From positions 1,426,001 to 1,490,000 of the forward strand of contig NZ_CP083666.1 of the NCBI RefSeq assembly GCF_020097835.1: a stretch of 64,000 nt of DNA. The letters run 5' to 3'. Positions 19,625 to 24,171 of this stretch are shown here, piece after piece. The stretch is from Haloprofundus halobius. GTDB taxonomy: Archaea > Halobacteriota > Halobacteria > Halobacteriales > Haloferacaceae. The notes below the pieces were generated by a model. It saw only the letters and a program-made list of their open reading frames with translations. It did no database searches and was not told the DNA's origin. The stretch's first letter is position 1; every line of letters begins with the position of its first letter. A program made the position numbers and the translations under genes.

Positions 19625-20122
19625 ATGACCCTCTCGGACGAGGACAAAGAGCGGTTGGCGGACGTGGTCAACCTCCAACCGACGAAGAACAAGGAACTGC
19701 AGAACCGGTGGGACCTCGACAGCGGCAGCGAGGTCCACCGCTACCTCGAAGGGACGCTCAAGGAGTACTACTACCGCGACGAGAACAGCCTCATCCGGGC
19801 GACGACGGAGGCCGCGGAGCTGCTCGGCATCGACCCGCCGGTAGACGACGAACGCGACGAGGGCGCGCCGAGCGTGCTCCGCGTCCCCGAACTGGAGTCG
19901 CAGGTGTTCGCTGTCGTCGCCGGACCCGACGAGCGCTCCGAGAGCGTCGTCAGCGTGTTGAACAAACTGCGCGAGCGGTTCGACGTCGACCCCGAAGCCG
20001 CCGACGTCCGCCGCGCGCTGCAGAGCCTCAAGCGGAAAGGGGTCGTCGAGGTCACGTATCGGACGGTTCCGACGTTCAAACTCGCCGTCGAGCGCGACGA
20101 GGTCGACGTCGAGGTCGTCTGA
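19625..20122 (+). CDS. Haloarchaeal winged-helix-like protein (DUF5797 type)
   Basis: This is a 165-residue soluble protein. The first half (LADVVNLQPTKNKELQNRWDLDSGSEVHRYLEGTLKEYYYRDENSLIRATTEAAELL) and the last part (VRRALQSLKRKGVVEVTYRTVPTFKL) both read like winged-helix units. As I recall it matches the haloarchaeal DUF5797 family. A DNA- or RNA-binding role is plausible but unproven. Confidence 0.75.
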   Translation: MTLSDEDKERLADVVNLQPTKNKELQNRWDLDSGSEVHRYLEGTLKEYYYRDENSLIRATTEAAELLGIDPPVDDERDEGAPSVLRVPELESQVFAVVAGPDERSESVVSVLNKLRERFDVDPEAADVRRALQSLKRKGVVEVTYRTVPTFKLAVERDEVDVEVV

Positions 20123-20213: not shown

Positions 20214-22043
20214 ATGGGAGACCACCGCCTCGCCGACCCGCTCGACGTCGCATCGTTCGGTGCGGTCGGCGACGGCGACGCCGACGACGGACCCGCCATA
20301 CAGGCCGCGCTCGACGCCGCCGACGACCGCGGCGGCGGCGACGTGACGCTGCCGACGGGCACGTACCGCCACACCCGCACGCTGCTCTACGGTTCGAATC
20401 TGGTTCTCGCCGGCTCCGGTGCGACGCTTCTGTTCGACCCGCCGGACCCCGACGCGACGGCGCTCGTTCCGCGAAGCTACGGCGGCGGCGAACGGGTGAG
20501 CCACGTGGTCGTCGACGGACTGACGCTCACCTCCGTAGACCCTGCGAAGGGAAACGGCATCGGCGTCGCCCACGCCGAGGACGTGACGGTCCGTGGCTGC
20601 CGCGGGGAGAAACTCCGGTGGCACCTCGTCGACGTCGCGGGCGGAAAGGACGTCCTCGTGCGAAACTGCTACGCCGTCGACCTGCGGTCGGCCGCCTATC
20701 AGGCCGACAACCTCACCGAGTACGGCGGCCTCGTCGTCGCCCCGCCCGAGGGAGACGTCGAAAACGCCGTCGTCGACGGCTCCGCCAACGAGAACGTCGC
20801 CATCGTCCACAACGTCGCCGAGGACTGCACCCGCGGCGTCCACCTCCACCGCAGCGGCGGTCACGACCTCTCGGTCGACCAGAACAAGATCCGCCGCTGC
20901 ACCGACGTGGGTATCCTCGGCGACGACGGCACCGACTGGCACGACGTGCGGGTGACGGGCAACATCGTCGAAGGAACCGAGACGTCGACGGGTATCCGCC
21001 TCGACGGCCACTACCGCAATATCTCCGTCGAGAACAACACCGTCCGAAACCACGGTGGCGACGGCATCGCCGTCCACCCCGGCGGGCACGGAACGTCGGG
21101 CGACGTGTCCGACGGGCCCACCGAGTTCGAGGGGGCCGTCGCCGAGGGCGTCAGCGTCTCGGACAACACCATCGAGCGAGTCGGCGGCGCGGGTATCGCG
21201 CTCCGCCGCGCCTCGGGAGAGGTCGCCGACAACTACGTTTACGACGTGGGAGGCGGGGAGAGTCGGAGGGAGGGCCCGACCGAGGGGCGCGAGGACGGTC
21301 TGTTGCAGGGCCACCCGGTCCACGAACCGTCGGCCGTCGTCGTCGAGCGCGGCGACGGCGTCACCGTCACCGACAACGTCTGCCGGAACGTCGCGGGCGT
21401 CGGGTTCGTCGTCCGCGGCGGCCGAAACGTCGCGGTCACGGCGAACGAACTGTTCGGTTTCGAGGTCGGCGTGCTCGCGGTCTCCGACCCGACGCCGACC
21501 GCTCGGATTCGGGTCGCGAGCAACACGCTCGAAGGCCAGGAGAACTCGCGGTGCGGCATCCGCCTCCGCGGCGGCTTCGACCACCGACTCGACGGGAACG
21601 ACTGTCGACGGGTCGCCCGCGGCGTCGAACTGCTCGACGCTCGCCGCGTGTTCTTCCGTGACACCGACGTCGTCGGCGACGGCGGTGGCGACCCCGACGG
21701 AGCGGGCGAGAACGGCGAAGTGGGCTACCGTCTCGACGGCTGCGAGGAACTCCGGTTCCGCGACAACGACGCCGAGGGGTTCGAGCGATCGACGGTGCTC
21801 TCGAACTCGGTCGACGTCGAGGGGGAACTGCCGCACGCCGACGTCCGCGTCGGCTCCGACTGCGCCGACGTGACGCTGACGATGCCGGGGCGGGCCCCGC
21901 CGACCGAGGGGCGCTTCGACGCCGGCTGTCGCGTCCGCAACACCGAGCCCTCGCCCGGCGGACCGATGGGGTGGGTCTGCGTCGATGGCGGCGACCCCGG
22001 GATCTGGCACGCGTTCGGCCGCATCGACGACGACCCGGCGTAG
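20214..22043 (+). CDS. Right-handed parallel beta-helix protein (pectate-lyase-3-like)
   Basis: This is a 609-residue protein. The N-terminus (VASFGAVGDGDADDGPAIQAALDAADDRGGGDVTLPTGTY) is the signature of pectate-lyase-superfamily helices. About twelve repeating coils with N/D-rich turns follow (NKIRRCTDVGILGD, NIVEGTETSTGIRLD, NTVRNHGGDGIAV, NTIERVGGAGIAL). It has no Tat or Sec signal and no catalytic triad I can assign. Relatives act on polysaccharides or serve as tail-spike-like surface binders. It is a lone gene, and export by an unusual route or a cytoplasmic role remain open. Confidence 0.85.
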   Translation: MGDHRLADPLDVASFGAVGDGDADDGPAIQAALDAADDRGGGDVTLPTGTYRHTRTLLYGSNLVLAGSGATLLFDPPDPDATALVPRSYGGGERVSHVVVDGLTLTSVDPAKGNGIGVAHAEDVTVRGCRGEKLRWHLVDVAGGKDVLVRNCYAVDLRSAAYQADNLTEYGGLVVAPPEGDVENAVVDGSANENVAIVHNVAEDCTRGVHLHRSGGHDLSVDQNKIRRCTDVGILGDDGTDWHDVRVTGNIVEGTETSTGIRLDGHYRNISVENNTVRNHGGDGIAVHPGGHGTSGDVSDGPTEFEGAVAEGVSVSDNTIERVGGAGIALRRASGEVADNYVYDVGGGESRREGPTEGREDGLLQGHPVHEPSAVVVERGDGVTVTDNVCRNVAGVGFVVRGGRNVAVTANELFGFEVGVLAVSDPTPTARIRVASNTLEGQENSRCGIRLRGGFDHRLDGNDCRRVARGVELLDARRVFFRDTDVVGDGGGDPDGAGENGEVGYRLDGCEELRFRDNDAEGFERSTVLSNSVDVEGELPHADVRVGSDCADVTLTMPGRAPPTEGRFDAGCRVRNTEPSPGGPMGWVCVDGGDPGIWHAFGRIDDDPA

Positions 22044-22071: not shown

Positions 22072-23079
22072 TCAGGAGTCGGGAGCGGACCGCTCGCGGA
22101 CGCGTTCGCGCCGCCGTTCGAGCAACCGCTTGATCCCCTTCCCCGGCCCGCCCTCGATGGGCCACCCTCTCGTCCGCCACTGCGGCGGTTCGGGCTGGAA
22201 GGAGGCGCACGACCCCGAGCACTCGGCGGCGGTCTGGTGACGCCCCTTCGCCTCACACCACGGGAGTAGTGCATCACCCTCGCGCCGCAACTCGAAGTAC
22301 CGGCAGTCGGGTCGCATCGTCCCGTGGTACGAGCGCCACCCGCGGCCGTACGCGCGTTCGGCGAGTCGCAGACGCGTCTCCGCGCGGTCGGAAGCCGCTT
22401 CGTGGTCCTCGGGATCCGGCGAGAGCGAACTCGGGTACCACGCCACCTCGCCCGCGTCGGCGCTGACCCCCGCCCTGAAGTCGAGCGCGAGGATGCCGAC
22501 ATCGACGGGGATGTTTTCGAGCAGCGCGGGTTCGACGTCCGCGCCGGTCGCCGCCGTCGCCAGCCACACCTCGTCGGCCAACGCCGTCTCCACGTCGTAC
22601 TCCAACTGTCCCGAGAGGGCGCGGGCGGCGCTGGCGTCCAAATCGGGTTTGTTCTCGACGGCGACGATGCGGCGGACCCAGTCGGGGTACGGTGCGACGC
22701 GTCGAATCTCGATTCGCCTCCCCTTTCGTCGCTTCTCGACGACGCCGCGGGCGGCCGCGCGGTGAATCGCCGCGAGCACATAGCGCCACGGGTAACCGGG
22801 ATGCGGGAGTGCGTCGCGGTACCACGCCCACTCGCTGGGCGCGTGGCGGACGACGTGCAGGAGGTCGGAGTCGAGTTCGCCGTCGCCGAACGCCGCGCGC
22901 GCGGCGAGCGCCTCGGGGTCGGCCTCGACGACGACGGTGTCCCAGCGGCGTCGCTTCGTGCCGAGTTGCCGGGCGACGACGAGCGCCGACTTTCGGTCGC
23001 TCTCCGGCGGCCACGCGCGTTCGGCCCACCGGCAGGTCAGAAGTTCGAAGACGAACTCCGAGTCGGCCGGGTAGCTCAC
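22072..23079 (-). CDS. DUF5787-type protein; candidate PD-(D/E)XK nuclease with cysteine cluster
   Basis: This is a 335-residue soluble protein that I recall as the haloarchaeal DUF5787 family. Residues 132-144 read P-D-x8-E-N-K, the spacing and order of a PD-(D/E)XK nuclease core. It is followed by a Q158/Y161 helix and an ADEVWLAT strand, as in RecB/Cas4-type nucleases. A C-terminal cluster C259, C275, C287, C291 plus C16 near the N-terminus resembles the one-plus-three Fe-S cysteines of Cas4/AddB. An N-terminal winged-helix-like stretch is also possible (YVLAAIHRAAARGVVEKRRKG). Function is inferred only. Confidence 0.7.
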   Translation of the reverse strand: MSYPADSEFVFELLTCRWAERAWPPESDRKSALVVARQLGTKRRRWDTVVVEADPEALAARAAFGDGELDSDLLHVVRHAPSEWAWYRDALPHPGYPWRYVLAAIHRAAARGVVEKRRKGRRIEIRRVAPYPDWVRRIVAVENKPDLDASAARALSGQLEYDVETALADEVWLATAATGADVEPALLENIPVDVGILALDFRAGVSADAGEVAWYPSSLSPDPEDHEAASDRAETRLRLAERAYGRGWRSYHGTMRPDCRYFELRREGDALLPWCEAKGRHQTAAECSGSCASFQPEPPQWRTRGWPIEGGPGKGIKRLLERRRERVRERSAPDS

Positions 23080-23154
23080 ATCTCGACTGCGAGCGCCGTC
23101 GCTATTCGTGTTACGGAACGGAGTCGGCGTGGTCGCGCCGCCGCCGACGCGGGG

Positions 23155-23619
23155 TCAGGCGAGGTACTTTCGTTCGGACTCCTCTTCGCCGTTCTTCGAC
23201 GCGAGTTCGTTGAGGTACTCGTGCGCCTCTTCGAGAATTTCGCGCGGGCCGTCCTGCGTGATGGTGTTGATGGCCTGCTCGTAGTCGCGCCACTGCAGGT
23301 CGCGGTGTTCGCTCGACAGTTCGGCGCTGGCCTCGAACGACCGGGCGATGAACAGGTGGACCGTCTTGTGGATGGTCTTGCCACCGGCTTCGAACACGTA
23401 GTCGTACTCTTTGCGGAACCCGTCGACGAGGCGGAAGTCGTCGATACCGGCCTCTTCTCCGATCTCTCTGATTGCTGTCTGCTGGAGTTCCTCATCCCCT
23501 TCGACCCCGCCTTTCGGGAACTCCCAGTCCCCGGGTCGGCTCTTCAGGAGCAGATACTCCCGTTTGCCGCGGGTGTCGCGGAAGAGGATGGCTCCAGCAC
23601 TGACCGCTTCGACCGTCAT
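23155..23619 (-). CDS. Nudix hydrolase, Ap4A-hydrolase-like
   Basis: This 154-residue protein has an exact Nudix box, GGVEGDEELQQTAIREIGEEAGI (GX5EX7REUXEEXGU), and the LLLKSRPGDWEFPKG lead-in typical of asymmetric diadenosine tetraphosphate hydrolases. It likely removes Ap4A or other nucleoside polyphosphates in the cytoplasm. The ATG at 23619 is favoured over one 18 bases upstream because conserved MTVEAVSAGAILFR begins there. It lies 76 bases after the DUF5787 gene stop region, on the same strand and upstream of it, so the two could be co-transcribed. Confidence 0.92.
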   Translation of the reverse strand: MTVEAVSAGAILFRDTRGKREYLLLKSRPGDWEFPKGGVEGDEELQQTAIREIGEEAGIDDFRLVDGFRKEYDYVFEAGGKTIHKTVHLFIARSFEASAELSSEHRDLQWRDYEQAINTITQDGPREILEEAHEYLNELASKNGEEESERKYLA

Positions 23620-23838
23620 TGCACCCACGTAGACCATCCCGTGTTAAGAGAATATCGGAGGCGTCGGCACAGCGCCGAAGAGACGAGTCTCGATGGGACG
23701 ATTTCTACGGAAACGAACCCCCGTTTATCAGTACTCTCCGCCGCATTCGTGCGTGCATGCGTGACAGTCACGCGGTGCGTGGGCTGTAGATGCGTTTTTA
23801 CCGCTCCGCGTGTGAAAGAGAGAGTAACCCCTCAGCTC

Positions 23839-24171
23839 ATGACTTTTGTAACCAAACTCACCTTCGAAAGCGGTGACAGAGCCGTGCTCGACGACGTCGT
23901 CTCCGAGCTCAAACGGCTGCTCGAACGGAAGGGCGCGGAGTGTAAGGGCCCCCACTCGTCGCCGCCCGAACGGCTGCGCGTCCCGCAGTACCGGACGTTG
24001 GGACGCGGCCGGGAGTTCTCGCCGTGGTCGTACGCGGTGTACACCCGTCGCCTCGAAATCCACGGCGCGGACCAGATAGCGCGCAGCGTCGCCGAGCGGC
24101 AGTTCCCCGACAGCGTCCACGTCGAGATCGAGATCGAACAGAAGAAACCGCTCGGTCATCGGCAGCAGTAG
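23839..24171 (+). CDS. Ribosomal protein uS10-like paralogue
   Basis: This is a 110-residue protein with the S10 ferredoxin-like layout: VTKLTFESGDRAVLDDVVSELKRLLERKGAECKGPHSSPPERLRVPQYRT, then a long loop, then YTRRLEIHGADQIARSVAERQFPDSVHVEIEIEQ. The genuine archaeal uS10 is about 102 residues and normally sits next to EF-1 alpha; this copy does not. It resembles the uS10/mL48-like proteins annotated in haloarchaea. It may be a ribosome-associated or moonlighting paralogue. ATG 23839 gives the conserved N-terminus; a longer frame upstream is shadow. Confidence 0.78.
   Translation: MTFVTKLTFESGDRAVLDDVVSELKRLLERKGAECKGPHSSPPERLRVPQYRTLGRGREFSPWSYAVYTRRLEIHGADQIARSVAERQFPDSVHVEIEIEQKKPLGHRQQ

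Follow-up and report, generated by a model that had tools for sequence, protein, structure and literature searches.

The 335-aa protein under study belongs to the DUF5787 family (PF19100), and we consider it probable that this family consists of metal-dependent PD-(D/E)XK DNA nucleases specific to Halobacteria, with a core split by a winged helix, a cysteine metal site, and one of two paralogues, B, recruited to PCNA. The protein is paralogue A and is encoded in a 64,000-nucleotide stretch of the Haloprofundus halobius genome (hereafter, the window). The most likely role of A and B is that of a housekeeping DNA nuclease pair, of which B is recruited by PCNA. What is new here are the two ancient paralogues and a PIP-box-like tail confined to B. 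A and B belong to the nearly universal gene core of an archaeal class that is amenable to genetics, and neither has an assigned function; the evidence yields a concrete hypothesis for them, namely that they code for split PD-(D/E)XK nucleases, one of which is probably tethered to the sliding clamp. Since Haloferax volcanii, the control genome in the distribution search, carries the family, the genes can readily be knocked out and put through damage assays there.

The DUF5787 family and its two paralogues

The ORF of paralogue A lies at the coordinates originally given (Table 1), and every residue named in the original prediction is present under its number. The PF19100 match scored 362.3 bits, against a Pfam gathering cut-off of 25, with residues 34-296 aligned to the full profile (1-278); PF19100 also matched 54/54 A proteins and 3/3 B proteins that were scanned. 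The protein had been described as a haloarchaeal one that carries the label of an uncharacterised DUF, and the Pfam entry indeed gives no function; nor does it tell the A and B clades apart. An NCBIfam search with the protein returned no match, PDB sequence searches gave nothing significant, and a literature search on the family found no paper. The nearest named relative found for paralogue A, from Haloprofundus marisrubri, is 88% identical. A 615-aa open frame antisense to the gene (window 22324-24171, plus strand) crosses both the DUF5787 gene and the adjacent NUDIX gene. Over most of its length it is probably a high-GC artefact, while its 3' end appears, by comparison with the Natronorubrum annotation, to be a uS10/mL48-like gene.

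The family was searched for in 295 genomes of the phylum, including 53 of the same order. It was found in 52 of these 53, with at least two matches in each, and no match above the cut-off was seen in the sampled genomes outside the order, which suggests that DUF5787 is specific to Halobacteria. A weak match outside the order (genome G228) was rejected, the ORF there reading as methionyl-tRNA synthetase. The sole sampled genome of the order without a match (G134) is a 1.9-Mb assembly in about 120 contigs, rated 98% complete. No relatives were found in the viral contigs and phage records searched, and only one plasmid record, from Natronorubrum bangense, contained the family. In that organism the chromosome and an 828-kb plasmid each carry a 13-kb neighbourhood of paralogue A, and the two copies (L079, L080) are 100% identical, as a result of either a recent duplication or an assembly artefact.

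Paralogue B of the same genome (G000:C1:3151590-3152444; L002 1387-2454, minus strand) is 36% identical to A. In a tree of 45 sequences, all A proteins were separated from all B proteins by a branch with 100/100 support, suggesting that the duplication probably predates the sampled haloarchaea.

The two clades also differ at the C-terminus, where QxxLxx[F/W] followed by 0 to 5 residues occurs in 19/19 B proteins and 0/101 A proteins. The own-genome paralogue B ends in the PIP-box-like sequence QSGLDQFG; FEN1 of the same genome ends in SQTGLDRWT. The PIP-box consensus is QxxI/L/MxxFF/Y, normally terminal (PMC2737543); the polymerases of H. volcanii have a less bulky residue in place of the second aromatic one (PMC3504372). 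The B tail is likewise terminal and lacks the second aromatic residue; given its position and the polymerase precedent, it fits a halophile PIP-box. This motif makes it probable that PCNA brings paralogue B to sites of replication or repair. A search of the same genome with a strict DNA pattern, which does not match paralogue B and whose result is not a count of PIP-boxes, returned FEN1 and one other site, at G000:C1:3043728-3043754 (L186), where QFFLDKFD may be a C-terminal PIP-box-like end.

Conserved residues and the predicted fold

Conservation was assessed in an alignment of 120 relatives (101 A, 19 B). Just 29 of the 335 columns are strictly invariant, among them E8, E12, E20, R44, D47, E142, Q158, and D162. 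The conservation of E142 (120/120), K144 (119/120), Q158 (120/120), C16 (119/120), and C259, C275, C287, and C291 (each 120/120) is therefore well above background, in agreement with the original prediction, which had singled out the first three as core residues and the cysteines as being placed like those of Fe-S nucleases. Its title spoke of a one-plus-three cysteine arrangement and its text listed one plus four; the sequence has the latter. The sole exception at K144 is an N in the paralogue B of locus L116 (genome G114), and the sole exception at C16 is an S in the paralogue A of locus L120 (genome G162). Two further residues that had been assigned to the motif vary. Y161, proposed to share a helix with Q158, is H in 59 proteins, Y in 23, R in 21, T in 10, and other residues in the rest. 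Position 133, thought to hold the "PD" acid, is D in 105, E in 8, N in 3, S in 2, and other residues in 2, so that the "PD" half of the proposed motif is wrong. D133 was rejected as the catalytic acid on this ground and on its location, which is in a loop preceding core strand 3 of the structural model.

The model was built by AlphaFold2 with 54 A proteins and had a mean pLDDT of 82 and a pTM of 0.83. When an insert comprising helices 71-79, 87-90, and 98-110 and strands 114-119 and 122-127 is taken out, the remaining elements (Table 1) follow the PD-(D/E)XK order; the sheet order was inferred from the order of elements. The structure prediction that had been put forward as a check thus supports a PD-(D/E)XK core with a conserved ExK. 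In proteins of this fold, the second core strand carries motif II (xDxxx) and the third carries motif III, and further residues, of motifs I and IV, are found in the core helices (PMC1913061). In the model, D47 is part of strand 45-53, and the end of strand 135-143 holds E142, with K144 coming after it. We propose D47, which is invariant and stands close to where the second strand begins, as the better motif II acid. The predicted positions of E8/E12 (helix 1), D47 (strand 2), E142/K144 (strand 3), and Q158/D162 (helix 2) all fit PD-(D/E)XK motif placement, and helix 1 is a candidate for both motif I and the first metal-site cysteine.

Table 1. Features of paralogue A and its neighbours, by position in the window.
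Feature	Position	Strand	Basis or remark
DUF5797 gene	19625..20122	+	often next to paralogue A, in convergent orientation
DUF5787 paralogue A, whole ORF, 335 aa, GTG start	22072..23079	-	PF19100, 362.3 bits
C-terminal cysteine region (C259, C275, C287, C291)	22207..22305	-	all four invariant in 120
Core strand 4 (residues 170-176)	22552..22572	-	AlphaFold2 model
Core helix 2 (residues 149-165), Q158 and D162, candidate motif IV	22585..22635	-	model; conservation (both invariant)
Core strand 3 and K144 (residues 135-144), E142-x-K144 as motif III	22648..22677	-	model; conservation
Winged-helix-like insert (residues about 71-127), between core strands 2 and 3	22699..22869	-	model; Foldseek; Pfam
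Core strand 2 (residues 45-53), proposed motif II acid D47	22921..22947	-	model; D47 120/120
Core strand 1 (residues 32-40)	22960..22986	-	AlphaFold2 model
Core helix 1 (residues 8-22)	23014..23058	-	model; E8, E12, E20 invariant, C16 119/120
NUDIX hydrolase gene (bis(5'-nucleosyl)-tetraphosphatase-like)	23155..23637	-	75 bases upstream of paralogue A; conserved

The insert, residues 71-127, had been overlooked; in the model it looks like a winged helix. Its Foldseek matches include ArsR-type repressors (probability up to 0.96), and single family members gave sub-threshold Pfam matches to PaaX, GntR, and Rrf2. The best PDB fold match of the whole model was PaqCI (8em1; probability 0.93, E 0.033, TM-score 0.27, rmsd 7.2 A), which we take to be of the PD-(D/E)XK class; in this PDB search no match passed E 0.001, and TM-scores were low. 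The top matches in the viral library were two uncharacterised proteins from phages (probability 1.00, best E 0.001), and the next was an MmcB family DNA repair protein (probability 0.99, E 0.004). The best fold matches other than winged helices are PD-(D/E)XK proteins, and these matches, while weak, are suggestive. Neither in sequence nor in structure did a characterised nuclease match significantly. A model of fragment 128-302 was low in confidence (pLDDT 62, pTM 0.38), and its Foldseek matches were therefore set aside.

PaqCI is a DNA endonuclease, but it is a type IIS restriction enzyme. The DUF5787 genes, in contrast, are a chromosomal pair present almost universally; no methyltransferase gene was noticed beside DUF5787 in the parts of the neighbourhoods that were read. 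We know of no described nuclease family with a winged helix between motifs II and III together with a conserved cysteine site and, to our knowledge, MmcB has neither a winged-helix insert nor a cysteine site. MmcB-like proteins (PF06319), while among the best viral-library fold matches, have no sequence-level match to DUF5787, and PF06319 did not exceed threshold in any of 148 sampled genomes of the phylum. MmcB itself is a PD-(D/E)XK endonuclease that protects against mitomycin C in Caulobacter (PMC9578287).

The cysteine site, competing explanations, and a possible mechanism

The original prediction placed the protein with Cas4/RecB nucleases. The DUF5787 profile was compared by hhalign with sets of archaeal Cas4 (PF01930) and AddB-like (PF12705) proteins, each taken as the longest ORF at mid-locus, with a length filter for Cas4, so that a few wrong ORFs may be included; the probability was 0.1, that is, no similarity was detected. 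A Pfam scan of 54 DUF5787 members gave no match to PF01930 or PF12705, and the 50 best PDB fold matches of the model include no Cas4 and no AddB. A QxxxY motif after the ExK is absent: Q158 is invariant, and the position aligned with the Y is occupied by the invariant D162. Following C16, the cysteines are spaced C-x14-19-C-x11-C-x3-C in the A clade and C-x12-23-C-x12-C-x3-C in the B clade. Cas4 has four conserved cysteines (PMC5704561), and an archaeal example (L125) shows the usual CxxC-x5-C tail, which is found in neither A nor B. DUF5787 thus differs from Cas4 in having five cysteines rather than four, in their spacing, in the winged-helix insert, and in the lack of a conserved QxxxY. It is like Cas4/AddB-type Fe-S nucleases in that one cysteine is on helix 1, the rest are C-terminal, and the ExK core lies between. 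Of the claim that the cysteines are placed as in Cas4 and AddB, the one-plus-four layout, which recalls iron-staple nucleases, can be kept, and the spacing and number cannot. Given the negative profile comparison and the different spacing, membership in the Cas4/RecB family is not supported, and we rejected this identity. A true Cas4/RecB-family Fe-S nuclease working through D133-x8-E142-x-K144 would account for the helix 1 cysteine and the retained ExK motif, but the drift of D133 and Y161, added to the profile, fold-match, and cysteine results, makes it very improbable.

Cysteines other than the five vary, with 0 to 5 extra per protein; because these come and go, the five that are kept stand out, and they fit a metal site, either Fe-S or zinc. 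How the five are used is a closer call. The same nuclease may carry a zinc module made of the four C-terminal cysteines alone, with C16 in some other role and no Fe-S cluster, and we give this arrangement close to an even chance. Four cysteines suffice for zinc, DUF7140 matches part of the C-terminal cysteine region weakly, and this region has a pLDDT near 80 even in the fragment 128-302 model, from which C16 is missing, which favours a self-contained module. However, that fragment model is poor as a whole, and the near-invariance of C16 in both clades, while other cysteines vary, is what is expected of a ligand and favours its taking part in the metal site. An unlikely alternative of a different kind is that the protein has kept the nuclease fold but does not catalyse anything, and acts mainly as a DNA-binding regulator or as a structural factor associated with the clamp. 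The winged-helix insert and the many transcription factors among the fold matches would suit such a protein, but the PIP-box on B suggests a role in replication or repair, and both ancient paralogues have kept D47 and E142 without exception and K144 with a single one, which reads as a signature of retained catalysis.

We therefore prefer a catalytically active nuclease, which might work as follows. Helix 1 and strands 1-2 (E8/E12, D47), the winged-helix-like insert, and then strand 3, helix 2, and strand 4 (E142-x-K144, Q158, D162) would together make up a split core, in which D47 and E142 would be the ligands of Mg2+ or Mn2+, with the attacking water placed by K144. The insert would pick the substrate, probably a particular DNA structure. 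C16 on helix 1 and the four C-terminal cysteines would form a probable metal site that joins both ends of the protein and stabilises the fold, the layout being similar to that of the iron staple in AddB, Cas4, and Dna2. The ancestral gene would have been duplicated early into A, linked to the NUDIX gene, and B, recruited to PCNA by its C-terminal PIP-box. A more far-reaching version sees A and B as a previously undescribed pair, found across the order, of structure-specific nucleases that contain a metal cluster and are divided by a winged helix; B would work on PCNA at replication forks, and the pair would be a lineage-specific part of haloarchaeal replication-coupled repair. We offer it tentatively, as a possibility that falls somewhat short of even.

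Gene neighbourhoods

Neighbours of paralogue A were counted in 68 full-length loci, with NUDIX and DUF5797 gene names taken from the Natronorubrum bangense annotation. The NUDIX gene is upstream of paralogue A in 66 of the loci, on the same strand every time. The DUF5797 gene is nearby in 48 and convergent in 47 of those 48. The link to the NUDIX gene could be a hint of a role in nucleotide or damage metabolism; the data allow shared regulation, no more.

Divergent to paralogue B in the same genome is a gene that, by sequence recognition, we take to be aIF2-gamma, and beyond it lies presumably a PIN-domain gene resembling FCF1. In H. volcanii, aIF2-gamma is HVO_1901; with the gene order, this makes HVO_1902 a possible counterpart of paralogue B, which is only a lead. 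FCF1 of H. volcanii is HVO_1900 (PMC12175516), and HVO_1902 is a conserved hypothetical protein reported among those of decreased abundance (PMC12240190).

Between the DUF5787 and DUF5797 genes of the window there is a 609-aa ORF (20214-22043, plus strand) with the repeat pattern of a parallel beta-helix protein. A relative of this ORF is present in just 1 of the 68 full-length loci, and it therefore looks like a lineage-specific insertion.
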